A stretch of DNA of 34,371 bases from Candidatus Cloacimonadota bacterium (GTDB lineage: Bacteria; Cloacimonadota; Cloacimonadia; Cloacimonadales; Cloacimonadaceae). Location of the stretch: the NCBI GenBank assembly GCA_012522935.1, contig JAAYJN010000078.1, forward strand, positions 1-34,371. The letters are read 5' to 3'. Under the pieces are notes generated by a model. It worked only from the letters and a program-made list of their open reading frames with translations, was not told the origin of the DNA and searched no databases. Positions 8,215 to 30,781 of this stretch are shown piece by piece. Made by a program: the position numbers and the translations under genes. Within the stretch, counting starts at the first letter, position 1. Each line of letters starts with the position of its first letter.

Positions 8215-10236
8215 ATGACAAGATCCCTGCCCCGTATTGGGCTACTGATAACAATAATAATCTTGGCTACATGTGTAAATGTGACAGCACATCAGGTGTT
8301 GCCAAGTGATACAATCAACTATCAAGCCAGCCTCCGTGCTACCGATCCTCCCGTGGGACCGGTGCGCCCGGTGGCAGAGTTTGAGCCCACATCCCATGTG
8401 ATGGTGCGCTATCCCCTGGGGATTCCGGTGGCGCTGGTGGCGCATCTTTCCAATACCGCGGAAGTAATCTGTCTGGTATCTTCCACTTCCCAGCAGAATT
8501 CTGCCACCACTTCCTTTACCAATGGCGGCGTGAATATGGATAAGGTCACCTTCATGAGGGTGAGCACAGATAGCTATTGGACGCGAGATTATGCGCCCTG
8601 GTTCATCATTGATGGCAATAACGAATTTGCCGTGATGGATTTTGTGTACAACCGCCCCCGGCCTTTGGATAACCAGATACCACAGTATTTTGCCAATCAG
8701 GAAGACTATCCCTATTACGCCATGCCCCTGCAGCAAACCGGCGGTAATTATATGACGGATGGCATCAATATCGTAGCCCAAACCACCCTGGTGTATAATG
8801 AAAACAGCTCCCTGGGGCAAACCGGCGTGAATAATATCATGCAGCAATATATGGGAGCAGAGGAGTTTTATGGCATTCCAGATCCGAATAATACCTATAT
8901 AGATCACATAGATTGCTGGGGCAAGTTTTTGGCTCCGGATAAGGTGTTGGTGCGCAGCGTTCCCGCCTCCCACGCCCAATACAACGCCATCGAGCAGGCG
9001 GCGAATTATTTTGCCACGCGCAATTGTGCCTGGGGATATCCCTGGAAGGTGTATCGGGTGAATACTCCACAGAATCAGCCTTATTCCAATTCGCTAATCG
9101 TAAATAAAAAGGTGTTTGTTCCCACCATGAATAGCAGTCACGACGCTGCCGCTTTGGATGTGTATCGTGATGCCTTGCCCGGATATGAGGTGATAGGCGT
9201 GCCCGGAGCATATATGACACCGTGGGAATCCACCGATGCCCTGCATTGCCGCACGCATGAAATCCCTGATAGAGAGATGCTGTATATCAGCCATCAACCG
9301 CTGTGGGGAGAGCAGGGATTGGATGAGGTTTTTTCCATAAATGCCCAGATCAAGGCGTATAGCGGGCAGCCTCTGTATGGCGATTCCCTGAAGGTGGTGT
9401 ATAAAGTGAACCGGGGAGAATGGCAGGCTGAGCTCTTGCAGGAGCTGGGCAATGGTGATTTTACAACGATGTTGGGTGGCTTTGCCCCCGGGGATACCAT
9501 CCGCTACTTTATCCATGCGGCAGATCAATCCGGACGCAGCCTGGATCATCCTTTCACCGGTGCCTGGGATACCCACATGTTTTATATCGCACCGGATCAG
9601 AGACCTCCCACCATCAGCCATGAACCTCCGGTGGATTATATTGCCAGCGATGCTGGTCACGTCACATTTAATGCAATAGTGACGGATGATACGGGTGTGG
9701 GTGTAGTGTATTTTAGCTATTATACAGAAAGCCAGCCAGTGTTTGAAATACCTATGGAGGATATGGGCGAAGGGCTTTATCGCTTCGATTATTATCCGGA
9801 GTTTGAAGCTGATGACAGCTTTCTATATTATCAAATCATAGCTTATGATATAGCCAATCCTCCCAATTATACATTCTATCCAGATATGTATTCGTGGCAA
9901 AGCATCCCCTTAAAGACAGTTAATAACGATGACAATACCATTCCTGCGCTTTCACTGGATATCCTCAGCATACACCCCAATCCGTTTCAATCTGGAAAGC
10001 AGGGCGTGAAGATAAGCTATCAAGCGCAGCCCAAAGGAAGAATAACGTGGAGTATTTTCAACATTCGGGGACAGCTGGTGGCGAGTGGTGAAAAGATGGC
10101 TGACAGGGATGGATTCGGACAGCTTAGCTGGGACGGTAATGCCAATAATGGCAAGGCGTTGCCTCGTGGCATCTACCTTCTGCATGTGGAACAAAACGGC
10201 AGTGTTAAAACACGCAAAATGAGCTTGCTGGACTGA
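8215..10236 (+). CDS. Secreted agmatine/peptidylarginine deiminase-family protein with sorting tail
   Basis: The 673-residue product starts with a signal peptide (~1-26, hydrophobic IGLLITIIILATC). The domain at ~40-370 is of the PAD_porph/agmatine deiminase family: WTRDYAPWF with D125, TGGNYMTDG, HIDCWGKF with H231, and the nucleophile region ALHCRTHE with C345. The middle (~375-590) looks like Ig/fibronectin-type beta domains. The C-terminus is a FlgD-like tail (HPNPF, FNIRGQLV, LSWDGN, PRGIYLL). Family members hydrolyse guanidino groups, either of agmatine (to N-carbamoylputrescine and ammonia) or of protein arginine (to citrulline, as in Porphyromonas PPAD). The export signals favour an extracellular substrate; which one cannot be decided. 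GGAG lies 9 nt before the ATG. A terminator follows, so it is probably transcribed on its own. Confidence 0.88.
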   Translation: MTRSLPRIGLLITIIILATCVNVTAHQVLPSDTINYQASLRATDPPVGPVRPVAEFEPTSHVMVRYPLGIPVALVAHLSNTAEVICLVSSTSQQNSATTSFTNGGVNMDKVTFMRVSTDSYWTRDYAPWFIIDGNNEFAVMDFVYNRPRPLDNQIPQYFANQEDYPYYAMPLQQTGGNYMTDGINIVAQTTLVYNENSSLGQTGVNNIMQQYMGAEEFYGIPDPNNTYIDHIDCWGKFLAPDKVLVRSVPASHAQYNAIEQAANYFATRNCAWGYPWKVYRVNTPQNQPYSNSLIVNKKVFVPTMNSSHDAAALDVYRDALPGYEVIGVPGAYMTPWESTDALHCRTHEIPDREMLYISHQPLWGEQGLDEVFSINAQIKAYSGQPLYGDSLKVVYKVNRGEWQAELLQELGNGDFTTMLGGFAPGDTIRYFIHAADQSGRSLDHPFTGAWDTHMFYIAPDQRPPTISHEPPVDYIASDAGHVTFNAIVTDDTGVGVVYFSYYTESQPVFEIPMEDMGEGLYRFDYYPEFEADDSFLYYQIIAYDIANPPNYTFYPDMYSWQSIPLKTVNNDDNTIPALSLDILSIHPNPFQSGKQGVKISYQAQPKGRITWSIFNIRGQLVASGEKMADRDGFGQLSWDGNANNGKALPRGIYLLHVEQNGSVKTRKMSLLD

Positions 10237-10422: not shown

Positions 10423-12927
10423 ATGCGTAGATTTGTATTGCTATCTTGTATCATCACCTTAGCTCTTTTTTCAATCCCTCTTCTTGGCATGGAAAAGATG
10501 GTGGTGCGCCTGGATAATGCCACATCAGACATGGCGTATTATTATGACGCCAATGGTTATGACGTGGCTTCAGTAAGACCCGGAGAGTATCTGGACCTGG
10601 TGGTGGATAACGCCACTTTTGCCCAGCTTAAACAAGAAAACCCTGCATGGTATGTGACGCAGACTCAAAGCCAATTGCTGGCAAACCTCGCTCCTCAACG
10701 TGACATACCCGGTTATCGCGATTACAATCAGGTGGTGTCTGATTTGCACCAGCTGCAGGCGCAATATCCCAATCTGGTGCAGGTGCACAACATTGGGGAT
10801 AGCTGGGGCAAGATATATAGGGAGGATTACCCTTTTTATAACAGTTTTGACCACAGTATCTGGACGGTTAAGGTGAGTGCAGATGTGACCCAGAGCCTGG
10901 ATAAATATGCCTTTTATTTTGTGGGCGAGCATCATGCCCGAGAGCCAATATCCACAGAAATGTGTTTTGTGATCCTGGAGCATTTGGTGGAAAATTATGG
11001 CATCCATCCGGATGTGACCACCATCTTGGATGAGAGCGAGGTGTGGATAGTGCCGCTCCTCAATCCCAATGGTCACAAAATCGTGCTGGATCAGCAGGAT
11101 ATATGGTGGCGCAAGAATATGCGGGACAACAATGGTAATCATAGCTTTGACACTGACTATGCTTCTGGCATGGGTGCTGATGGAGTGGATTTGAATCGCA
11201 ACTATGGGTATCGCTGGGGATATTCCAACACTACAGATTTACAGTATTGGCCATCTTATCACGGTCCAGGTCCCTTTAGTGAACCAGAGACGCAAGCCCT
11301 TGCCAATCTGCTTTCTTCACGTCGGTTTTTGGCAGGAATTAGCTATCATACGCATGGACAGTATGTGTTATACCCCTTTGGCTATCTAATGGATCTGGTG
11401 GCTCCCGATAGCTATGAATTGCGCACGCTGGCACAAGAGATTGCCGGGCAGATCCTCAAACATAATTCCACAAACCAGTACTACGACGCGATGCCCTCCT
11501 GGCAGCTGTATCCTGTGAGCGGTAGTTCTGATGATTGGATATATGGCGTGACCGGTGCCTTTGCCTTTACGGTGGAGATGGCAACGACATTTATTCCTCA
11601 CCTTTACGATATACCTCAGATAACCGCACAAAACCTCAATGGTGCCATGATGTTGCTGAAAAGAGGGCAAAAGAAAATGCTGACGGGGCATGTGACGGAT
11701 GCCGTTACGGGTCAGCCCTTGCCAGCCCGGATTTGGGTGCAAGACTACGACGATCTTCCCCAAGGCTATCCGGCTCTTTATGCCAATGCCAGCTTTGGTA
11801 CATATTACAGGTTGCTGCCGGAGGGACAACATCTGGTGCGCTATATATTGCCGGGCTATCAGACCCAAAGCAGGGTGGTGACAATCCTGCCTGATGCCGT
11901 GACTGTGGAAGATATACAGCTGGAACCCACCTACCCCATAGCTTTACAGATCACAATAGTGGATGTCTTGGATCAGCCAGTGGCAGATGCCAGCCTGATA
12001 TTTGAAAGTGACCCCCAGCACGTGTATCTTTCTAATGGCGATGGTTTGATAGTGATACCGGAGTTTTATCCCGGAGAATACAGCGTCACGATTACTAAAC
12101 TGGGATTTTCCACCCTGCGTTATACGCGGCAGATAGACACACCCAATATCTTGTTCAGACTTAATGAATATGCGGACTTGAACGATAGCTTTGAATCCGG
12201 GATGGCTTTGTGGATCACAACCGGAAACTGGGGCACATCCTCCTTACACGCATGGGAAGGAAGCCACTCTTTAACAGACAGCCCCAACGGAAACTATGCC
12301 CCCAATGTTAATAGCTGGTGCAAGCTGGCAGACCCCCTGCTTTTGGATGGTGTGGATAACGTGGATTTGCAGTTTTATATCCGGCATGATCTGGCGCAGG
12401 ATATAGATCATTGCCACCTGCAGTATAGCTTTGATGATCAGAATTGGATTATCCTGGATACATTTATGGAGTTTTCTGATTGGAGCTTGAAGAGCTATAG
12501 TCTGAATAAATTCATCGGCTCCATCCTTTATCTGAGATTCCTTTTCTACAGTGATGGCAACCTCAATGGAGACGGTGTGTATATAGATGACTTCCGTGTT
12601 TACACTGGTTTTGCCTCAACTCCGGCGGATACTCCTGTGGCAAATCCCATTTCCCTGAATGTGTATCCCAATCCCTTTGCACAGCAGGCAAATATCAATC
12701 TGACAGGCATCAAACAAGAGACGGCTCAGCTGCGCCTTGCCATCCACAACCTGCGCGGTCAGCTTGTATGGGAAAAGGAATTGAACAGAGAAGATATCAG
12801 CGGGCAGCCCGTACCCTGGGATGGCAGAGACCAACACGGCAATAATGTGGCATCCGGTATTTATCTGGTTAAACTGTATGACGGCAGGCGGGTGCTTGCC
12901 ACAAACAAGATCTTAAGAATGAAGTAA
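10423..12927 (+). CDS. Secreted M14 zinc carboxypeptidase with regulatory-like domain and sorting tail
   Basis: The 834-residue product has a signal peptide (~1-23, LLSCIITLALFSIPLLG), a short propeptide-like part (~24-110) and an M14 catalytic domain (~110-410). Zinc ligands are H171 and E174 in HHARE and probably H309 in SYHTHGQ; DLNRNYGYRW is the substrate-binding Asn-Arg region; the catalytic Glu is E385 in FTVEM. A carboxypeptidase regulatory-like domain follows (~418-505, LTGHVTDAVTGQPLP), then a second such domain, a MAM/jelly-roll-like domain (~585-730, FESGMALWITTGNWG) and a FlgD-type tail (YPNPF, HNLRGQLVWE, PWDGRD, ASGIYLV). It should trim C-terminal residues from peptides outside the cell. 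Specificity cannot be read off. Only 10 nt separate its stop from potA, so the peptidase and transporter are probably cotranscribed. Confidence 0.93.
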   Translation: MRRFVLLSCIITLALFSIPLLGMEKMVVRLDNATSDMAYYYDANGYDVASVRPGEYLDLVVDNATFAQLKQENPAWYVTQTQSQLLANLAPQRDIPGYRDYNQVVSDLHQLQAQYPNLVQVHNIGDSWGKIYREDYPFYNSFDHSIWTVKVSADVTQSLDKYAFYFVGEHHAREPISTEMCFVILEHLVENYGIHPDVTTILDESEVWIVPLLNPNGHKIVLDQQDIWWRKNMRDNNGNHSFDTDYASGMGADGVDLNRNYGYRWGYSNTTDLQYWPSYHGPGPFSEPETQALANLLSSRRFLAGISYHTHGQYVLYPFGYLMDLVAPDSYELRTLAQEIAGQILKHNSTNQYYDAMPSWQLYPVSGSSDDWIYGVTGAFAFTVEMATTFIPHLYDIPQITAQNLNGAMMLLKRGQKKMLTGHVTDAVTGQPLPARIWVQDYDDLPQGYPALYANASFGTYYRLLPEGQHLVRYILPGYQTQSRVVTILPDAVTVEDIQLEPTYPIALQITIVDVLDQPVADASLIFESDPQHVYLSNGDGLIVIPEFYPGEYSVTITKLGFSTLRYTRQIDTPNILFRLNEYADLNDSFESGMALWITTGNWGTSSLHAWEGSHSLTDSPNGNYAPNVNSWCKLADPLLLDGVDNVDLQFYIRHDLAQDIDHCHLQYSFDDQNWIILDTFMEFSDWSLKSYSLNKFIGSILYLRFLFYSDGNLNGDGVYIDDFRVYTGFASTPADTPVANPISLNVYPNPFAQQANINLTGIKQETAQLRLAIHNLRGQLVWEKELNREDISGQPVPWDGRDQHGNNVASGIYLVKLYDGRRVLATNKILRMK

Positions 12928-12937
12928 GGAGCTGAGA

Positions 12938-14131
12938 TTGGAAGAGATCAGAATACAAAATATCAGCAAAGATTTTGATGGCTTTCTGGCTGTGGATGGA
13001 GTGGATCTCACCATCCGTTCCGGCGAGCTCTTTTCCTTTTTGGGACCCAGCGGTTGTGGCAAAACCACCCTGCTGAGGATGATAGCAGGTTTTGAAACCC
13101 CTCAGAGAGGCAATATCTTTATCGGGGATGAAGATATCACCGATCTGCCTCCGTATAAACGCCCAGTGAATACCATCTTCCAAAACTATTCGCTGTTCCC
13201 TCATATGACCGTGTGGGACAACGTGGCTTTTGGGCTCAAAATCCGCAAGGTGCCTTTGCCGGAGATTCAGAGCCGCGTGAGCGAAATGCTGCAATTGGTG
13301 AAGATGGAGGATCAATCTGCCAAGTATCCGGCGCAAATGAGCGGAGGGCAAAAGCAGCGGGTGGCAATTGCCAGGGCACTGATCAACAAACCCAAGGTGC
13401 TGCTTTTGGATGAACCCTTGGCAGCGCTGGATCTGAAACTGCGCCAGCACATGCTGATTGAATTGATGAACATCCACGATGCCGTGGGCATCACCTTTAT
13501 CTATGTGACCCACGATCAGGGCGAGGCGATGAGTATCAGCGACCGCGTGGCGGTGATGGATAAGGGCAAGGTGGTGCAGGCAGGTCCGCCCGATGATATC
13601 TATGAGCGCCCAGCCAGCATCTTCTCGGCATACTTTATCGGGGAAACCAACCTCATCACCGGGCAGGTAATTGGCATTGAGGATGAATATATCCAACTGC
13701 GCTGTAATATGGGTGATGGCGAGTTTTTTGAGATTGATTCCACCTTCCATTTCCGTCCGGAAGTGGGGCAACAGCTCACGGTATCCCTGCGTCCTGAAAA
13801 GATAGCCATCTCCCGCAATAAACCCCGTATTCAAGACGATATCAACGTGTTGAAAGGGTCCATCGAAGATATCCTTTATTTGGGCAGCCATACACAATAT
13901 ATCGTCACGGTGGGCAAGCTAAAATTCCGCGTATTCAGCCAACACAAACGGGTATATTTTGATGACACGGCTTTGGACTGGGATGAAGAGGTGTGGCTGT
14001 TTTGGCATGATACAGATAGCTGGCTGATAGACGAAATGCCTGATGAAGCAGCATACGCATCCGAGAGCATGGTACACCCGCCTCGCTTTGGCAAGCGCGA
14101 GCAAAGCCGCAATATCGCTGAGGAACAGTAG
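12938..14131 (+). CDS. potA: Spermidine/putrescine-type ABC transporter ATP-binding protein
   Basis: The start is TTG, supported by AAGGAG exactly 6 nt upstream and by the N-terminus IQNISKDFDGF aligning with the family. The 397-residue product has Walker A GPSGCGKTT, Q-loop FQNYSLFPHMTV, ABC signature MSGGQKQRVAIARA, Walker B VLLLDEPLAALD, an H-loop (YVTHDQGEAM) and a C-terminal TOBE-type domain (~290-360). PotA drives import of polyamines in complex with PotB and PotC. It is the second gene of the M14 peptidase-potABC unit, 10 nt after the peptidase. No periplasmic binding protein gene (potD) follows. Polyamine specificity is the usual assignment of this subfamily; related MOI-family importers for other small cations or sugars cannot be excluded. 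Confidence 0.93.
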   Translation: MEEIRIQNISKDFDGFLAVDGVDLTIRSGELFSFLGPSGCGKTTLLRMIAGFETPQRGNIFIGDEDITDLPPYKRPVNTIFQNYSLFPHMTVWDNVAFGLKIRKVPLPEIQSRVSEMLQLVKMEDQSAKYPAQMSGGQKQRVAIARALINKPKVLLLDEPLAALDLKLRQHMLIELMNIHDAVGITFIYVTHDQGEAMSISDRVAVMDKGKVVQAGPPDDIYERPASIFSAYFIGETNLITGQVIGIEDEYIQLRCNMGDGEFFEIDSTFHFRPEVGQQLTVSLRPEKIAISRNKPRIQDDINVLKGSIEDILYLGSHTQYIVTVGKLKFRVFSQHKRVYFDDTALDWDEEVWLFWHDTDSWLIDEMPDEAAYASESMVHPPRFGKREQSRNIAEEQ

Positions 14132-15940: not shown

Positions 15941-17146
15941 ATGACAATATTGATTTTGGCAACGGTAATCCTAATCCTCAATTGGATTTGGGAATATCGC
16001 CGCCATCTGCGCAAGGTGAAAAGCATCCCCATCCGCATCCATGTCAATGGAACCCGCGGAAAATCCAGTGTTACCCGGCTGATTGCCGCTGGCTTGCGAG
16101 CTGGCGACATCAAGACCATTGCCAAAATCACGGGCACTTTGCCCCGCGTGGTTTTGCCTGATGCCCGGGAAGCTGCCATCATCCGGCTGATGGGTGCAAA
16201 CATCATCGAACAAAAGTATATCTTCCGAGAAGCGCTGGAGCATCAGCCCCAAGCCATCGTCATCGAGTGTATGGCGGTAAATCCTGTATTTCAGTGGATT
16301 ACAGAGCGGAAGTTTGTAAAATCCACCATCTCCGTGATCACCAACTGCCGTCCTGATCACCTTGATCTGATGGGCAGCACAGTGCAGAGCGTTACGATGA
16401 GCCTTTCCAACACCATTCCCAGCCGTGGGGTGTGTTACACTGCGGAGAATGAGCATTTTGTGATTTTGGACAAAGTGGCAAAACGCAGACACACCCGCAT
16501 CCATCAGATTCGCCCTCATGATATCACCCAGGAAGAGCTGGCACAATTTCGCTATATCGAACATGCAGAGAACGTGCAACTGGCTCTTGCCGTGTGTGCT
16601 GAGGCGGGTGTACCGCGTGATGTGGCGCTGAAGGGCATGCAAAGTGCCAATCCCGATCCCGGTGCCCTGCGTAAGTATGAGATCAATGACAGGAATAAGA
16701 AAATACACTTTTATAATGTATTTGCTGCCAATGATCCCAAATCCACCGCCCGCATCATCGATATGGTGACGGGACAGCTGAACAACGTGGAAAAGATTGT
16801 AATCTTGAACAGCCGTTCAGACCGCTTGTTTAGAAGCGAACAATTGGTGGATGCCGTAATGGAATTGGATTATAGTTATCTGCTCCTTACCGGTGAGATC
16901 CCAGAAAAGGTGGAGGCTTATGCCTTGAGCGCAGGTGTTCCTCGCGAAAAGCTAATCCCCATGGGCGAGCCCTTGCCGGAAGCGGTTTATAGAAAGGTAT
17001 GGGAGCTTACAAACCGGGAATCCCATGTATTGGGCATAGGCAATATTGCTGGCAGAATCAAATATGGTGCCCAAATCGTGGCACACTTCCGGCACAGAGT
17101 TCAAGCAGAAAAGAAAGTTCAAAAACAAGGAGTCTCAAGTGGTTGA
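15941..17146 (+). CDS. pgsB: Poly-gamma-glutamate synthase PgsB/CapB
   Basis: The 401-residue protein has an N-terminal membrane anchor (TILILATVILILNWIW), a basic YRRHLRKV stretch and then the Mur-ligase-like ATP site HVNGTRGKSSVTRL (~33-46). Further family signatures are TGTLPRVV, ANIIEQKYI, ECMAVNP, NCRPDHLDLMG, ANPDPGALRKY and AANDPKSTARI near 260. Length and motif order match Bacillus PgsB (393 residues). PgsB/PgsC polymerise glutamate through gamma-carboxyl linkages using ATP at the inner membrane. AGAGGA lies 4 nt before the ATG. The 3' end overlaps pgsC by 8 nt. It heads a run of seven closely spaced plus-strand genes ending with gpsA. Confidence 0.95.
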   Translation: MTILILATVILILNWIWEYRRHLRKVKSIPIRIHVNGTRGKSSVTRLIAAGLRAGDIKTIAKITGTLPRVVLPDAREAAIIRLMGANIIEQKYIFREALEHQPQAIVIECMAVNPVFQWITERKFVKSTISVITNCRPDHLDLMGSTVQSVTMSLSNTIPSRGVCYTAENEHFVILDKVAKRRHTRIHQIRPHDITQEELAQFRYIEHAENVQLALAVCAEAGVPRDVALKGMQSANPDPGALRKYEINDRNKKIHFYNVFAANDPKSTARIIDMVTGQLNNVEKIVILNSRSDRLFRSEQLVDAVMELDYSYLLLTGEIPEKVEAYALSAGVPREKLIPMGEPLPEAVYRKVWELTNRESHVLGIGNIAGRIKYGAQIVAHFRHRVQAEKKVQKQGVSSG

Positions 17147-17594
17147 TGCAGTAGTTCAAGCCGCTGTAGGCATAGGCGTTATCGTTAGCCTCATTTTTAG
17201 CGAGCTACTTGGTGCCTCAGCCGGTGGCATAGTGGTGCCCGGCTATGTGGCGCTATATTTGGATAAACCCATGCAGATATTGGGCACCCTGTTGGTGAGC
17301 CTGCTCACCTGGGGCATCATACGCATTATCGGCAGTTTTACCCTCCTTTTTGGCAAACGCCGGATGGTGTTGAGCATCTTGATTGGTTTCATCTTAGGCT
17401 GGGCGATACGTCTTTTGGTGATCAAAAATGTCACCGTTTACACCCTGCAAATGCAATCCATTGGTTATATCGTGCCTGGCCTGATTGCCAATTGGTTTGA
17501 ACGCCAAGGTTTTTGGAAAACACTTTCCACGATGGGTGTGGCTGCCGTTTTGGTGCGCCTTACCCTGATGGTGGTTTTTGGAGGTGAAGTGTGA
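17139..17594 (+). CDS. pgsC: Poly-gamma-glutamate biosynthesis protein PgsC/CapC
   Basis: A GTG at 17139 is preferred over the ATG at 17046: AAGGAG lies 6 nt upstream, and the resulting 151-residue product matches the ~149-residue family size, whereas the longer frame would overlap pgsB by ~100 nt with a hydrophilic leader. The product is almost entirely hydrophobic, with about four to five membrane spans. It has the family-like segment SAGGIVVPGYVALYLDKP near the N-terminus and another near the end (IGYIVPGLIANWFERQG). PgsC partners with PgsB as the membrane part of the polyglutamate synthase. It overlaps pgsB by 8 nt and pgsW by 4 nt. Confidence 0.92.
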   Translation: MVDAVVQAAVGIGVIVSLIFSELLGASAGGIVVPGYVALYLDKPMQILGTLLVSLLTWGIIRIIGSFTLLFGKRRMVLSILIGFILGWAIRLLVIKNVTVYTLQMQSIGYIVPGLIANWFERQGFWKTLSTMGVAAVLVRLTLMVVFGGEV

Positions 17595-18718
17595 GCATGT
17601 ATCGTCCCTCTCTCAAATCCATTTGGTCTCTGATAGCGCTCTTTGCATTGAGCATAGCCCTCTTTGTGTGGGCTCAATACAGCTATGTGGAAATCAAAAC
17701 AGATCACTATGAACAAAAGGTGCAGGCAGCCCATTTGATGCAAGCCTTTATGGATACCATCAAGGTGGAGCTGCAAGAATCCGGTTACGAATTTGACGCC
17801 ATAGATGACCCCTTCCACACAGGCCTCATCGGTACCCGCCTTTCCGCCATCACCACAGACCGTGGCCTGCTTTCTGACAAACAGGCGGCTTTGAACCCAA
17901 ATCTGGCTGCCATCTTTATCGAAGAATTTACCAAGGAAAAGTTGCAGGCAGGGGATCACATCGCCGTTGGCATCACGGGCTCCAACCCCGCCGTTAATCT
18001 GGCGCTATATGCCGCCATTAGTGCGATGGAGCTTCAGCCTTCCATCATCACCGCTGTCTCCTCTGCTTCTTATGGAGCCAACCGTGAGGATTTTACCTGG
18101 CTGGATATCGAAGCCATTCTTAAGAAGCACAAACTCATCGATTTTAGCACTTCCTATGCCTCATTTGGAGGAAAAGAAGACCTTGCCATTGGGCTGTCTG
18201 ACAATGGAATCCAACGCCTCAGCGAAGCCATGGTGCGCAATTCCACCCCCATGCTGGTGGGCGCCACCCTGGAGGAAAACGTATCCCTGCGCGAAGGTGC
18301 CTATCGTGAATTGATCCCCAAAGGCAAGCGCTATCGCCTCTTCGTGAATATCGGTGGTGGACTTGCCAACGTTGGTTCCGAGCCAAACGCCAAATTGATT
18401 CCTGAGGGGATCAACAAAAAATTGGCAGAAAAGCCCTTTGAAAAAGAAGGCATCATGATGGTGATGGCAAGGCAGAATGTGCCCGTGCTGCATATCCGCC
18501 GCATCCAGCGTTGGGCAAAAAAGTATGACGTGGCTTCCACCCAGGAGATGATACCCATCCCCGGTCAAGGTCCCGCATTCACCAAGCGCAAACACAATGT
18601 AACAGTGGCAACGATAGCATTGGCAGTCCTTTTGGCAGCCATTATTATAGTGATTATTTTCGATCGTCATGATCGCCGTTTTATGGCAAACATAGTGGAT
18701 CCGGATGAGGAATTGTAA
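17591..18718 (+). CDS. pgsW: Poly-gamma-glutamate system protein, PgsW-type
   Basis: The GTG at 17591 overlaps the pgsC stop by 4 nt and has GGAGGT about 6 nt upstream; an ATG at 17597 is the alternative. The 375-residue protein has one N-terminal span (~10-28, SLIALFALSIALFVWAQ) and one C-terminal span (~337-356, TIALAVLLAAIIIVIIF), with a ~300-residue soluble region between that is probably periplasmic. Notable stretches are GLIGTRLSAITTDRG, GDHIAVGITGSNPAVN and NIGGGLANVGS. The position directly after pgsBC and this architecture fit PgsW, a protein found with PgsBC in diderm genomes in place of PgsA/CapA. Its biochemical role is not established. Confidence 0.82.
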   Translation: MSMYRPSLKSIWSLIALFALSIALFVWAQYSYVEIKTDHYEQKVQAAHLMQAFMDTIKVELQESGYEFDAIDDPFHTGLIGTRLSAITTDRGLLSDKQAALNPNLAAIFIEEFTKEKLQAGDHIAVGITGSNPAVNLALYAAISAMELQPSIITAVSSASYGANREDFTWLDIEAILKKHKLIDFSTSYASFGGKEDLAIGLSDNGIQRLSEAMVRNSTPMLVGATLEENVSLREGAYRELIPKGKRYRLFVNIGGGLANVGSEPNAKLIPEGINKKLAEKPFEKEGIMMVMARQNVPVLHIRRIQRWAKKYDVASTQEMIPIPGQGPAFTKRKHNVTVATIALAVLLAAIIIVIIFDRHDRRFMANIVDPDEEL

Positions 18719-24366: not shown

Positions 24367-25116
24367 TTATTTTGCTTTGCCTTGGGAAGCCACTGCCTGT
24401 TCGGCTGCAGCCACTTCTTCCTCGCTGGCAAGGTAATAACGCTTCACCACGTTCAGGTCATCATCAAATTCATAGATGAGGGGCATGCCCGTGGGGATAT
24501 TGAGGCTCACGATATCCTCATCGCTGATCTTATCCAGATGTTTAACGATGGCACGCAGGCTGTTGCCATGGGCGCTGATGATCATTCTTACGTTATTCTT
24601 CAGGTGTGGCACCACTTCTTCATTCCAAAATGGCAAAGCTCTGGTGATGGTATCTTTCAATGATTCGCGAAGGGGAATTTGCTCTTTGGTGAGGTTTTTA
24701 TAGCGGGGGTCTATACCCGGATAACGCTCGTCTGTTTCTTCCAGATTTGGAGGCGGAACGTCGAAGCTCCTGCGCCACAGCATTACCTGTTCCTCGCCAT
24801 ATTTCTCGGCAGTTTCTGCCTTGTTAAATCCCTGCAAAGCTCCATAATGCCTTTCGTTCAGCCGCCAATCGTTGATGATGGGCAGATACATTCTATCCAT
24901 TTCGTCCAGAACGATCCAGAGGGTGCGAATGGCGCGTTTGAGCGTGCTGGTAAAGCAAAGGTCAAATTCAAAGCCGGCTTCCTTCAATCGCTTGCCCGCT
25001 TCGTGTGCCTCTTTCAGACCTTGTTCGGAGAGGTCCACATCCGTCCAGCCTGTAAAGAGGTTTGCCTTGTTCCAAGTGCTTTCACCATGGCGCATCAACA
25101 CTATTTTTTTTGTCAT
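24367..25116 (-). CDS. gpmA: 2,3-bisphosphoglycerate-dependent phosphoglycerate mutase
   Basis: The 249-residue product has the catalytic [10 protein letters not shown] (His11 phospho-acceptor), [31 protein letters not shown] and the second catalytic histidine in [11 protein letters not shown]. It interconverts 3- and 2-phosphoglycerate in glycolysis and gluconeogenesis. Length is that of the dPGM family. The start overlaps the adenosyltransferase stop by 4 nt. It is the last gene of the minus-strand unit and is followed by a terminator. No unusual residues noticed. Confidence 0.97.
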
Positions 25117-25673
25117 TTTATTTCTCCTTCACATCCGGGGATATCCGGATTGGTTTTATAGTTGATTTTACCGGCACGATGTTCCAGATAGCGTGCCATT
25201 ATAAAAAAGAGATCAGACAGCCGGTTTACCAGCATCATCAATTGCTCATCCACCGCTTCCTTGCGGTTGAGGGCTATCATGCGCCGTTCTGCGCGCCGCG
25301 CGATGGTGCGGCAGATATCCAGCCTGGCAGATGACACGCACCCGCCCGGTATCACAAAACCCTTGAGCGGCGTCTCTTTTTCCAGTTCATGGATCAGGGC
25401 TGTCACGCTGTCAACATCTTTGGGGCAGATGGGATGCTGATACTCTTGCTGGATAGTGGCAAGCTGTCCCATAGCGCGATACAATAGATTCTGAATGTCT
25501 CGCAGCCATCCCACCAGCTTATCATCATCCACATGGTGACAGGCGTCTCCCACAAAGGCATCCAGTTCGTCAAGGGTGCCATAGGCTTCCACCCTCAATT
25601 CATCTTTCCACACTCTCTGCCCGCTATAAAGGGAGGTTTGCCCCTTGTCTCCAGTTTTGGTGGTTATGCTCAT
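25113..25673 (-). CDS. Cob(I)alamin adenosyltransferase, PduO/MMAB type
   Basis: The 186-residue product has the ATP-binding N-terminus [14 protein letters not shown] (~5-18), [14 protein letters not shown] (~29-42), and the signature [24 protein letters not shown] (~107-130) with the Arg residues that bind triphosphate, then [17 protein letters not shown] (~148-164). It transfers adenosyl from ATP to cobalamin for B12-dependent enzymes such as mutases. Start and stop each overlap the neighbouring ridA and gpmA genes by 4 nt (ATGA), so translation is coupled. Cobalamin-dependent amino-acid or propionate metabolism would fit an amino-acid fermenter, but no such enzyme is in the window. Confidence 0.95.
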
Positions 25674-26047
25674 GATGGGCGTACCGCGATCAGGGAAATC
25701 TCCACCAAGCCATCTTTGGGCAGTCTTGCCACTTCGATGGCTTCCCGGGCGGGAAAGGGCTCTGTAAAATGAGTGGCATAGATTGCGTTTAGCTGGGCAA
25801 AATCGTTCATATCCTGCAAGAATACACTCACTTTCACCACGTTGTCAAACCCCAGCCCTGCCTCTTTGAGGATGGCTTCCAGGCTCTTAAACACACGCTT
25901 TGCCTGTGCTTCAAAGCCATCTTCCATCTCTTGTGTTTCAGGGTTTATCCCCAATTGACCGGAGATAAAGAGGATGTTTTCGCTCATTGCCGCCTGGGAG
26001 TAGGGTCCCACGGCTGCTGCTGCCAAAGTTGTGGAAATCGCTTTCAT
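25670..26047 (-). CDS. ridA: RidA family reactive-intermediate deaminase
   Basis: The 125-residue product is a full-length Rid protein: AVGPYSQAA (~12-20), LFISGQLGINPET (~26-38), VVKVSVFLQDMNDF (~70-83) and the signature PAREAIEVARLPKDGLVEISLIA (~98-120) with the active-site Arg. RidA hydrolyses enamine/imine intermediates released by PLP enzymes and so protects amino-acid metabolism. AAGGAG lies 6 nt before the ATG. The stop overlaps the adenosyltransferase start by 4 nt, and the HisRS-like gene ends 22 nt upstream. Confidence 0.95.
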   Translation of the reverse strand: MKAISTTLAAAAVGPYSQAAMSENILFISGQLGINPETQEMEDGFEAQAKRVFKSLEAILKEAGLGFDNVVKVSVFLQDMNDFAQLNAIYATHFTEPFPAREAIEVARLPKDGLVEISLIAVRPS

Positions 26048-26069: not shown

Positions 26070-27377
26070 TCATTCATTATTGATGGCTTTGCGCGCCACC
26101 AACACTGCATTGGATATATCCGAGAGGGGGATATACTCCTGATGCTCTTTGATCAGATTATAAAGCAGGATCTTGCCGTCACGGATGTTTTGATCCCGGA
26201 TGGCAAATAACAGGCTGCAACCCTTGCGTTTTGCCCGCTGCATCTGCTGTGCCAGTTCATCGCCATTGATGCCAAATACGGTTCTCACTCCCAAGGCATG
26301 CAGTTCGTGAGTAATCTGTAACAGCATCATATCCATGGAGCTGGATTCTGCATAAAGATACACGGCAAAGGTGCCATTTTGAGACTCATAGACGTTGCGC
26401 TGTTTTAGGATGTCAAAGATGATATCCATATCCAGATAAAAACCCACGGCAGGCATGCTTTTGCCCGTAATCTGCTCTGATAGTTCGTCATATCTGCCGC
26501 CACCGCCGATGATGATCTCATTATCGCCCTGTCCCAATACAAAGTCAAACACAGTACCATTATAATAGGAAAAGTTCTTGTACAAAAATGGATCCATGCG
26601 GTAGCTGTGCCCCAGATTGGCCTGTATCTTTTTCAGCTTCACAAAGTCCGCATTGCAGCTATCACACAGATAATCCGTTATTTTGGGACCTTGGCTGAGG
26701 ATTTGTAAACAATTTGGGTCTTCACAGCGTCTGCGCTCAAGGGGATTCACGCTCAGTTTGGCAAAGCAATCCACACACAGCTCGCTTTCACTCTCTACCA
26801 AGAATCTGCGCATCTCTTTGATAAATTCCTGCCGGCAGCCTTTGCAGCCAAAGTTATTCAGCTTCAGCGTCACTTCGCCCAATCCCAGGGATTTGCAAAG
26901 CCTGATCCCCAAGGAGATCACCTCGCTTTCGCTGAGGATGCTGCTGCCGCCCAAGAGCTCCACACCCAGTTGATAAAACTCCTGCGGTTTACCCTGCGGG
27001 TCTTTGCGAAACATAGGACCATGATAGTACAATCTATGCAGTTCGTCTTCGGCAAGATATTGGGCTGCATAATCCAGCACGCTGATGGTTCCTTCCGGAC
27101 GCAGTGATATGGTGGATAGATCGTTATCCACCGCGCAGAGGGTGAGCGTGTCATCCACCGGCTCTCCCGTCTGACATTCGTCTTTTGGTGCTGATATGCC
27201 CCGGTTGATTATCTTATAATCCTGCAGTATGGAAAGGCGGATTTCCTCATAATCATACAGGGCGAGCACCTGATCTATTTCACTTTCAATCATCTTCCAG
27301 CGCCACACATCGGCAGGCATGAAGTGATGAAAGTTGTAGCTATGTTCGGGCATTAAATCTCCGTTTTTTGGATTCAT
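26070..27377 (-). CDS. Histidyl-tRNA synthetase-like protein, probably catalytically altered
   Basis: The ATG at 27377 is chosen (AAGGAG 4 nt upstream) over one at 27413; the product is 435 residues. It is clearly of HisRS descent: SLRPEGT (91-97), motif 2 YYHGPMFRKDPQGK with R124, GGGGRYDEL (291-299), AVGF (310-313) and a C-terminal anticodon-type domain (~332-435). But the histidine-specific segment usually RGLDYY is KNFSYY (267-272), and motif 3, usually GLER, is DMDI (316-319), so two catalytic arginines are missing. An insertion with eight Cys (178-241) probably binds zinc; cysteine-containing versions of this region occur in some bacterial HisRS. It may be a HisZ-like or other regulatory paralogue. 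Genuine HisRS is not in the window. Confidence 0.8.
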   Translation of the reverse strand: MNPKNGDLMPEHSYNFHHFMPADVWRWKMIESEIDQVLALYDYEEIRLSILQDYKIINRGISAPKDECQTGEPVDDTLTLCAVDNDLSTISLRPEGTISVLDYAAQYLAEDELHRLYYHGPMFRKDPQGKPQEFYQLGVELLGGSSILSESEVISLGIRLCKSLGLGEVTLKLNNFGCKGCRQEFIKEMRRFLVESESELCVDCFAKLSVNPLERRRCEDPNCLQILSQGPKITDYLCDSCNADFVKLKKIQANLGHSYRMDPFLYKNFSYYNGTVFDFVLGQGDNEIIIGGGGRYDELSEQITGKSMPAVGFYLDMDIIFDILKQRNVYESQNGTFAVYLYAESSSMDMMLLQITHELHALGVRTVFGINGDELAQQMQRAKRKGCSLLFAIRDQNIRDGKILLYNLIKEHQEYIPLSDISNAVLVARKAINNE

Positions 27378-27442
27378 GACTCTCCTTATGAAATACATAA
27401 GGTTTTCTGTCAATGGAAATTAGTTTTATACGATTGCAATCT

Positions 27443-30400
27443 TCAAGGCTTGAAGGAGGTAAATGGCTGTGAGATATTCCTGCGCCTTTCAAAGAGGGCA
27501 GCCATCTTGATATCAAGCTCGGAAATGGCAGGACGCACCACGTTGTCCAGATCAGCAGGATTCACGCTATCGGGATCAAATACTGGATAGGGCTTGCCTT
27601 TCAGCTCTTCTATCAGCTCGTCTGCCATGGCATTCCAAGGGTTTATATCTGCTAAGGCAGGCGTAATCCAGCCCAGCTCGTAAAATACTTTCAAGAGTTC
27701 GCACAGCTTGTTGCTCTTGGCAGGATCGTGGAAAAAGCTAACCGCCCCATAATTGCCAAGCATACTGGCACTTATCTCCAGATACGATACCTGTGGCAAG
27801 AGGAGGTCTGCGCGGGAATTGTCATCCTCAAAATGCTGGATGCTCACCTGGAAGGCAAGACAATCCTCGTCTCTCAGCTTGGCGCCCCACACCATCACAA
27901 AATCGGCTGGTTCCGCAGGGGCAAAGCTGGGTTCGATGGCGATCAAGCCACCCAAATTGGGATGATGGGTACCCACCATGATGTTGCGCGGAAAATCTTC
28001 ACTATCCTTTGCCAGCTTCCACACCTGCCAGGCGCCGCGGGTGCTGATGCGGTTGATATTATACAGATAGAGGCGTTTGCCACCTGGGGGCAGCTCTTGC
28101 AGTGTGTCATATTTGGCATCCACAAATCTGAGCCATGGAGCCTGGGAATCTCCCACGAATATCAGCTTCTTACCCTTGCGCTGCCTCAGCCTCAGCATGG
28201 TGCGCAATACCAAATCCACCTCATCACACACAATGTATTCGTCATACTCGTCCAAACGTCCATAAGGCTGGGGATCAGGGCTTACAAAGTAAGACGCCTT
28301 GCCCAGATGCAAGATGGAGGCATCCGCCCTCAACACTGCATTGGCGTTTTCCGCCGCCTTTTTGGCAATCAGCATTTCCTCCGTGGTGATATCTGGTGAA
28401 ATCTCAAAACGCATCGTTTTTGCCTGCACTGCTTTGGCTCTAATCAATTCCCTGGCTTCCCGCCAACTGATATCCTTCCACACGCTTCCTTCACGCAGGC
28501 GAGGCTGTTTCAACCTGTTGGGTGCTATCAGCGCCTGCCAGCCAAAGCGTCCGTTAAAGCAGAGGTTACGCCCGTTAAAACGCTGCAAATCGTCTTCATC
28601 CGGGGTCTCAATCAGGGTGGGCACACCGCTTTGGGTTTCCACCTTGATATAACAGCCGCTGCCGCACAAACCACAGTTTTGCACCGTTTCATCTTTAATC
28701 AAGGGATTCAGCTTGTAGTGTGCATTGCGCTCTGCCAAAGCGCCCACAGGACACACGGCGATGCATTTGCCACAGCTTTCACAGGTGGTCTGGGTGAGGG
28801 ATTGTCCAAATTCTGGAACCACCACCGCGGCAAAACCACGGTGGATAAAGCCTAAGACCGCCGGTCCTTGTATTTCCGCACAGGTGCGCAGACAGCGGGC
28901 GCAGTTGATACACTTATTGGTATCACGCAGTATATAGGGATGGGTGTGATCGATGGGATGCTTGTTGATGCTGCCGGGGAAGTTGAGCGCATCCACCTCA
29001 TACTCGGTACAGTATTCCCTCAGGGCACAGGTTTCATTGATCTGGCATCCACATTCCAAACAGCGGGATGCTTCGCTGCGCGCCTGATATTCGCTAAAGC
29101 CCAGCTCCACCTCTTCAAAGGTGCTCACAGCCTTGGGCAGGGGCAATTCCGGCATATTGATCCGCTCTATCTGGCGATAAATCTCATATTCCTTGGTGGA
29201 GATGTCTTCTATGCGATAGCCCTTTTTGGAATCAAACTCAGCACGGCGCGGCTGGATGGGCTGTCCTTTCAGATATCTGTCAATGGCTTCCGCTGCCGCT
29301 CTTCCATCTGCAATGGCTTCAATGGCGGTGGCGGCTCCACGGCGGAAATCTCCGCCTGCAAACACATTATCCAAGCCCGTGTACATGCTCTTTTCATCGG
29401 ATACCACCGTTTGCCAGCGGCTTAAGGGGATGATCTGCCCGTCAATCTTGTTTTCCTCTTCCGCAAAGAGATCAACCTCCGGCACCTGCGAGATGGCGGC
29501 AATGATGGAATCAAATTCCTCATTATAAAAGTCACCCGTGGGTTCCGGACGCCTGCGCCCGCTGGAATCCGGCTCACCCAGTTTCATCTTTTCTATCACC
29601 ACATTGGTCAGTTTGCCTGCATCCCCCAGATATTCCACCGGGTTGGAGAGGAAATGGAACCGTACGCCTTCCTCGGCTGCGGCATCTATTTCAAAGGATT
29701 CCGCCGGCATCTCTTCCCGGGTGCGGCGATAGATCACAGATACTTCACAGCCCAGTCTGATAGCAGTGCGGGCACAATCGATGGCAGTATTGCCTCCGCC
29801 CACCACCGCCACCTTTTTGCCCAAATGTGGGGTATCGCCCAAGGCATGTGCTTTCAAAAAGTCCACACCCAGATGGCAGCCTTGCAAATCGCTGCCTTTC
29901 ACCGGCATGGGCACTGCCTTCTGGGCACCAATCGCCACATACACGGCGTCATAGCTCTTGCTGAGCTCAGCCAAAAACACGTCTTTGCCAAGGCTGATGC
30001 CATAATCTATCTGCATCCCATTGAGGCACATCAGATCTATTTCCGCATCCAATATCTCTTTGGGCAGGCGATATTCCGGGATGCCATAGCGCAGCCAGCC
30101 ACCCGCCTGGGGAGCGGCTTCAAACACGCGCACCTCATGCCCATTATTGGATAGATAATACCCGCAGGTAAGCCCTGAAGGTCCGGCTCCGATGATGGCA
30201 ATCCTCTTGCCCGTGCTCTCTTCTTTTGCCGGCACATAGTTCCACACATCGCCCAAGTCTTCATCCGCGGCATAACGCTTTAGCTGGCGGATGGCTACCG
30301 GATCTTCCACTATCTGGCGTCTGCACTCCTGCTCACAAAATGCAGGACACACCCTGCCTATGGATAGGGGCATGGGCAAAGTGTCTTTGATCACCTTCAC

Positions 30401-30781
30401 CGCATCATGGTATTGACCGTTGGCTATCAACGACACATAGCTTTGCACGTCCACATGATCAGGGCACGCCAGCTTGCAGGGAGCTTCACAATCTGCATAG
30501 TGGTTGGAGATCAACAGCTCCAGCGCCATCTTGCGGGCGGCATGGATATCCTCGCTATCGGTCACTATCTCCATCCCTGGGCTCACCATGGTTCCGCAGG
30601 AGGTCACAAAGCCCTTGCGCCCCTTCACCTCCACTGCACATACCCAGCAGGAGCCATAAGGATTGAGCTCGTCATCATGACACAATGTGGGGATTTGTAT
30701 CCCTTCCATTCTTGCCAGATCCAGGATGCTGATGCCCTCTTCAGTCTCTATCTTTTTGCCGTTCAAAATCACTTCAATCAT
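27443..30781 (-). CDS. Fused NuoG/GltD-type iron-sulfur flavoprotein, putative bifurcating-complex subunit
   Basis: The 1112-residue product has in order: a [2Fe-2S] ferredoxin domain (C34, C45, C48, C62); a Cys cluster HYADCEAPCKLAC (~94-106) leading into a GltD/NfnB-like domain with Fe-S ligands (CPAFCEQEC), FAD motif IIGAGPSGL (~196-204) and NAD(P) motif VVGGGNTAID (~325-335); a cysteine motif CLECGC; two [4Fe-4S] sets (CINCARCLRTC, CESCGKCIAVCP); and a shortened NuoG/molybdopterin-oxidoreductase-like region (~705-1112) starting NCGLCGSGC. No [FeFe]-hydrogenase H-cluster motif is present, and no Mo active-site segment was seen. With the NuoF- and NuoE-like genes it probably forms a soluble NAD(P)H/ferredoxin complex related to HydABC and Stn/Bfu transhydrogenases; inferred. 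It starts 9 nt after the NuoF-like gene. Confidence 0.85.
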   Translation of the reverse strand: MIEVILNGKKIETEEGISILDLARMEGIQIPTLCHDDELNPYGSCWVCAVEVKGRKGFVTSCGTMVSPGMEIVTDSEDIHAARKMALELLISNHYADCEAPCKLACPDHVDVQSYVSLIANGQYHDAVKVIKDTLPMPLSIGRVCPAFCEQECRRQIVEDPVAIRQLKRYAADEDLGDVWNYVPAKEESTGKRIAIIGAGPSGLTCGYYLSNNGHEVRVFEAAPQAGGWLRYGIPEYRLPKEILDAEIDLMCLNGMQIDYGISLGKDVFLAELSKSYDAVYVAIGAQKAVPMPVKGSDLQGCHLGVDFLKAHALGDTPHLGKKVAVVGGGNTAIDCARTAIRLGCEVSVIYRRTREEMPAESFEIDAAAEEGVRFHFLSNPVEYLGDAGKLTNVVIEKMKLGEPDSSGRRRPEPTGDFYNEEFDSIIAAISQVPEVDLFAEEENKIDGQIIPLSRWQTVVSDEKSMYTGLDNVFAGGDFRRGAATAIEAIADGRAAAEAIDRYLKGQPIQPRRAEFDSKKGYRIEDISTKEYEIYRQIERINMPELPLPKAVSTFEEVELGFSEYQARSEASRCLECGCQINETCALREYCTEYEVDALNFPGSINKHPIDHTHPYILRDTNKCINCARCLRTCAEIQGPAVLGFIHRGFAAVVVPEFGQSLTQTTCESCGKCIAVCPVGALAERNAHYKLNPLIKDETVQNCGLCGSGCYIKVETQSGVPTLIETPDEDDLQRFNGRNLCFNGRFGWQALIAPNRLKQPRLREGSVWKDISWREARELIRAKAVQAKTMRFEISPDITTEEMLIAKKAAENANAVLRADASILHLGKASYFVSPDPQPYGRLDEYDEYIVCDEVDLVLRTMLRLRQRKGKKLIFVGDSQAPWLRFVDAKYDTLQELPPGGKRLYLYNINRISTRGAWQVWKLAKDSEDFPRNIMVGTHHPNLGGLIAIEPSFAPAEPADFVMVWGAKLRDEDCLAFQVSIQHFEDDNSRADLLLPQVSYLEISASMLGNYGAVSFFHDPAKSNKLCELLKVFYELGWITPALADINPWNAMADELIEELKGKPYPVFDPDSVNPADLDNVVRPAISELDIKMAALFERRRNISQPFTSFKP

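Follow-up and report, generated by a model that had tools for sequence, protein, structure and literature searches.

A histidyl-tRNA synthetase paralogue of Cloacimonadota with a predicted broken ATP site and a retained histidine pocket, tentatively read as a histidine-binding regulator

The window, by which we mean the whole 34,371-nucleotide stretch of Candidatus Cloacimonadota DNA that was analysed, carries on its minus strand (26070..27413) a paralogue of histidyl-tRNA synthetase (HisRS) in which residues of the predicted ATP site are replaced and those of the histidine pocket are retained. We read it, tentatively and with somewhat less than even confidence, as a pseudo-HisRS that would make neither His-AMP nor His-tRNA and would instead bind histidine and act as a regulator, in bacteria that are auxotrophic for histidine and degrade it. 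Its binding of histidine, its regulatory role and the existence of a partner are what we infer from sequence.

The open reading frame encodes 447 aa from a TTG codon and 435 aa from an in-frame ATG at 27377 (residue 13), and homologues suggest that the true start lies between residues 13 and 22. The best-scoring NCBIfam family was hisS, with 246.9 bits against a cut-off of 286.75, and the hisZ match was far below its own cut-off (113.7 versus 271.65 bits). Pfam searches revealed only HisRS-type domains across the 447 aa, with no protein kinase domain and with an HGTP_anticodon match slightly below its cut-off. The AlphaFold2 model (49 relatives in the input; mean pLDDT 85, pTM 0.74) consists of a HisRS core, a helical insertion and a high-confidence C-terminal alpha/beta domain, and its best Foldseek matches were HisRS structures aligned over their full length (4e51, E 1e-34). 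These results, with the motif 2 sequence FRKD and its Arg and the GGGGRYD motif, agree with an initial annotation, made from the sequence alone, that the fold and many motifs of HisRS are kept. They also bear out its claim that an anticodon-binding-type domain is retained at the C-terminus (26073..26369, minus strand, approximately residues 349–447; located by Pfam, AlphaFold2 and Foldseek).

Contig C36 of the host metagenome-assembled genome (G000; 2.13 Mb, 94% complete) carries another PF13393 gene, which is a canonical hisS with RGLDYY and GGFERL motifs. Because of this separate hisS the window gene is a paralogue, as initially annotated, and is not the sole HisRS of its genome, the circumstance that the annotation had said would point to a functional divergent enzyme. 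Within the window's family, 48 of 50 genomes have the paralogue, and the remaining two are 59% and 86% complete; eight genomes of other families (G051, G054, G055, G056, G060, G061, G103 and G104) also have it, at about 27–35% identity to the window protein. Nearly all of these genomes also carry a canonical hisS, 25–30% identical to the window protein. In one relative that is 99% complete (G009) the paralogue was present and canonical hisS was not seen; hutH, which adjoins the canonical hisS region in the family, was missing too, which makes a gap in the assembly the likely explanation. In a scan of genome contigs, relatives of the paralogue among the matches listed were all named Candidatus Cloacimonadota, and the best matches outside the phylum among those listed were canonical HisRSs with an RGLDYY-type motif; within that scope the paralogue is likely absent outside the phylum. 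The copy in G043 (C14:4173-5330) matches as two pieces inside one open frame (L060:847-2052, L061:1153-2358), with poor alignment in the insertion-domain region, possibly reflecting a deletion or divergence there.

The initial annotation had proposed a phylogeny; in a tree of 72 rows, the paralogues form a single clade with 100/100 support that includes neither the hisS genes of Cloacimonadota nor any of 25 HisRSs from other phyla. Descent from the hisS of the phylum itself was not rejected (AU p 0.37); nor was a union with HisZ (AU p 0.17), a test that used three HisZ rows and left out L197, a second HisRS-type protein, although the free tree keeps the two apart. Pairwise dN/dS was 0.05–0.13 for five pairs of paralogues (dS saturated in two), compared with 0.18 for one pair of canonical hisS genes, and the paralogue is thus under purifying selection. 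The best reading of these data is that the paralogue is ancient and specific to Cloacimonadota.

Residues were mapped onto E. coli HisRS (1kmm), and 22 paralogues were compared with 50 canonical HisRSs; of 63 columns that are near-invariant in the canonical proteins, 24 are shared by 18 or more of the 22. The initial annotation had observed that the histidine-binding RGLDYY segment reads KNFSYY and that GLER of motif 3 is replaced by DMDI, and the mapping agrees, DMDI lying within GFYLDMDII: Lys279 (26577..26579, minus strand) occupies the place of catalytic Arg259, and Asp328-Met-Asp-Ile331 (26421..26432, minus strand) that of Gly308-x-Glu-Arg311, with I331 at R311. Arg259 is present in 50/50 canonical HisRSs and in 3/22 paralogues; the site is Lys in all 14 members of the window's family in the set, and M, T, S, N or R outside the family. 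Gly308 has become N or D (position 328) in 22/22 and Arg311 (position 331) is missing in 22/22, while Gly260, Asp262 and several basic insertion-domain residues have also disappeared. Most paralogues have a motif 2 loop shortened by two residues. The N-terminal catalytic half carries a mean net charge of -5.2 in the paralogues versus 0.0 in canonical HisRS. The C-terminal domain is conserved at about the canonical level, whereas the rest of the protein has diverged more.

The motif 2 Arg (Arg136, E. coli R113; 27006..27008, minus strand, by mapping and alignment) is retained in 21/22 paralogues. The LRPE(D)xT strand is also retained across the paralogues, along with YY264, GGRY288 and further structural glycines. 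E107, T109, Q148, E152, Y284 and Y308 of the window protein correspond to E83, T85, Q127, E131, Y264 and Y288 of the E. coli enzyme, the established histidine-binding residues of HisRS, and these are retained in 19–22 of the 22 paralogues, with E83D in three distant members and Q127 altered in three. The changes in motif 3, at Arg259 and in the motif 2 loop would therefore alter the ATP and tRNA-end sites and leave the residues that hold histidine in place. As the initial annotation had supposed, the protein is very unlikely to charge tRNA-His normally; these substitutions give good sequence support for a loss of charging.

The insertion domain (residues 190–253; 26655..26846, minus strand) contains eight Cys in four pairs (positions 190, 193, 213, 216, 230, 235, 250 and 253), forming one or more probable zinc sites. 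The initial annotation counted the eight Cys correctly and took the insertion to be an addition, which does not hold: all eight occur at aligned sites in 14 of the 25 canonical HisRSs of other phyla, and seven are found in most hisS genes of Cloacimonadota. The Cys lie in the usual insertion domain of bacterial HisRS, an ancestral feature that the paralogue has inherited. All eight Cys are present in 20/22 paralogues, and such strict retention suggests that the predicted metal site matters.

The gene order in the family is paralogue, ridA (25670..26047), pduO-type cobalamin adenosyltransferase (25113..25673) and gpm phosphoglycerate mutase (24367..25116), all on the minus strand in the window; pduO and gpm are conserved neighbours within the family only. 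By contig position, ridA follows the paralogue immediately downstream, with the strand shared, in 47 of the 56 paralogue genomes, including 5/8 of those in other families, and is nearby but divergent in three more. It occurs in 56/56 genomes with the paralogue versus 18/69 without it (Fisher p 3e-19, computed with 19 entered in place of 18 and with kinship between genomes ignored). Upstream in the window is a fused 2Fe-2S/GltD-like/NuoG-like redox gene (27443..30781, minus strand), which is not a conserved neighbour. The redox, RidA and B12 genes that the initial annotation placed in an operon with the paralogue are confirmed as its neighbours in the window, but the redox genes are not conserved there; ridA is, and within the family pduO and gpm. 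No T-box or other riboswitch was detected in the window at Rfam gathering scores.

Several other genes were observed. The 1112-aa redox protein combines 2Fe-2S, GltD-like flavoprotein and NuoG-type Fe-S regions with a weak molybdopterin-type match and comes after NuoE/NuoF-like genes; it resembles a composite electron carrier linked to NADH. In other families, the genes upstream of the paralogue and ridA encode a LysM protein, PgpH-type 7TM-HD, YbeY, CorC/CNNM and, usually, DUF3108 and VanZ proteins (L048-L052). Gene sizes had suggested a lysine aminomutase-type amino-acid fermentation operon in these distant families, a candidate that was rejected once the genes were recognised as PgpH-type 7TM-HD, YbeY, CorC, DUF3108 and VanZ. 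Elsewhere in the window, a Mur-ligase-like gene followed by two further genes (15941-18718, plus strand) resembles a poly-gamma-glutamate (PgsB/C/W) set, a polymer linked to Cloacimonadota in a 2026 paper (PMC13082233), and 8215-10236 (plus strand) encodes a member of the Porphyromonas-type peptidyl-arginine deiminase family (Pfam PAD_porph, E 1e-31) whose C-terminal domain is FlgD-like.

The hisG search proposed in the initial annotation found no HisG in 125 genomes of the phylum (a control search was positive in 13/14 genomes), and no HisD was found in the 50 genomes of the window's family. Histidine ammonia-lyase (HutH) was detected in 113/125 phylum genomes, and a complete histidine-to-glutamate route has been reported in one Cloacimonadota genome (PMC13082233). 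With no HisG, no HisD in the family and histidine ammonia-lyase present, these bacteria therefore probably import and burn histidine, which would make it both a required nutrient and a fuel. In the family, hutH lies 4-5 kb upstream of truA-hisS (L206:5457-7028, 11544-12860; L207:6729-8264, 12285-13544), a conserved arrangement that places histidine breakdown close to histidine charging. HutH also occurs in genomes without the paralogue and is near-universal, and co-occurrence is thus uninformative as a link between the paralogue and histidine degradation.

In the mechanism that we propose, the paralogue, which keeps its fold and histidine pocket as well as the predicted metal-binding insertion and the C-terminal domain, would form no histidyl-adenylate and charge no tRNA-His; free histidine would close the pocket, and a partner would sense the altered conformation, with the remodelled C-terminal domain as the probable relay, much as HisZ acts on HisG but with a different partner. 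Consistent with this are the fully supported single clade in nearly all family genomes beside canonical hisS, its low dN/dS, the contrast between the loss of Gly308 and Arg311 and the keeping of the pocket, the acidic catalytic half, which does not favour tRNA binding, and the absence of HisG and the family's HisD together with the presence of histidine ammonia-lyase. Against it, the role is predicted from sequence, the presence of the paralogue does not track histidine ammonia-lyase, the pocket is changed in some distant members, and we know of no link between ridA and histidine sensing. A wider form of the proposal, a third HisRS-derived regulator lineage beside HisZ and the GCN2 domain, in which a stand-alone bacterial protein would sense histidine or uncharged tRNA-His, possibly with RidA, is conceivable but slightly more doubtful.

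The main rival, which we consider unlikely, is an RNA-binding or heterodimer partner that would use its insertion and C-terminal domains to bind tRNA, rRNA or canonical HisRS and would modulate translation, somewhat as do GCN2, with its HisRS-like domain, or SLIMP, a SerRS paralogue. Both domains are retained, the Cys almost strictly, and in other families the gene comes after PgpH-YbeY-CorC, YbeY being a ribosome-linked nuclease. However, the motif 2 loop has gone, as have several Arg/Lys residues that are invariant among canonical HisRSs (at 144, 219, 226 and 231, and one Arg that is deleted), and the acidity of the catalytic half also speaks against this reading. GCN2's HisRS-like domain, a catalytically inactive regulatory module, resembles the paralogue in being HisRS-like and predicted inactive, but GCN2 is eukaryotic and its domain is fused to a kinase, which the paralogue lacks.

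Less probable again is a repurposed synthetase that activates an amino acid or other carboxylate for a non-tRNA acceptor, with Lys279 standing in for Arg259. The motif 2 Arg persists, as do GGRYD and the LRPE(D)xT strand, and Lys279 is invariant in the family, yet no member keeps the Gly and Arg of motif 3, the Lys279 site varies outside the family with no clade-wide alternative catalytic set, and no carrier-protein or EF-P-like gene was recognised among the conserved neighbours. PoxA/EpmA and the aa:CP ligases are bacterial paralogues of class II synthetases that do something other than charge tRNA (PMC9437257), but they derive from other synthetases and have kept adenylation, whereas the ATP site of the paralogue is broken as judged by sequence.

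A divergent but active second HisRS, an isoform for stress or drug resistance, is very unlikely. The paralogue shares with canonical bacterial HisRS (TIGR00442) the full-length fold, the Cys-pair insertion domain, the histidine pocket, the motif 2 Arg and the C-terminal domain, but differs in the loss of the HisRS-specific Arg259 and of motif 3 Gly308 and Arg311, in the shorter motif 2 loop, the part that reads the tRNA-His end, and in its low identity and score below the hisS cut-off.

We give next to no credence to a HisZ-type regulatory subunit of ATP phosphoribosyltransferase. HisZ (TIGR00443) is likewise a HisRS paralogue with no charging role that binds histidine in a retained pocket, and common ancestry with the three HisZ rows was not rejected. 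The paralogue nevertheless scores far below the hisZ cut-off, forms its own clade in the free tree and has the eight-Cys insertion and the C-terminal domain, while the three HisZ proteins lack the Cys insertion and have Arg at the Arg259 site (RDFDYY/RGLRYY); HisZ function is ruled out in a phylum with no HisG (or HisD in the family), unless a non-homologous HisG exists. A decaying duplicate with no function, for which the lost catalytic residues and the two-piece match in G043 might speak, is ruled out by the selection pattern, near-universal presence in the family and conserved synteny.

A 2022 review of duplicated synthetases lists HisZ as the only HisRS paralogue with a changed function (PMC9437257), and no description of this paralogue family was found in the literature searched. 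The paralogue scores below the hisS cut-off, and annotation could easily mis-name it hisS or hisZ. For this uncultured phylum, common in anaerobic digesters, histidine sensing would be useful where histidine is imported and burned, and, if the histidine-binding regulator reading is true, this widespread pseudo-HisRS, its histidine pocket intact, would add a new example to the synthetases that have become regulators.
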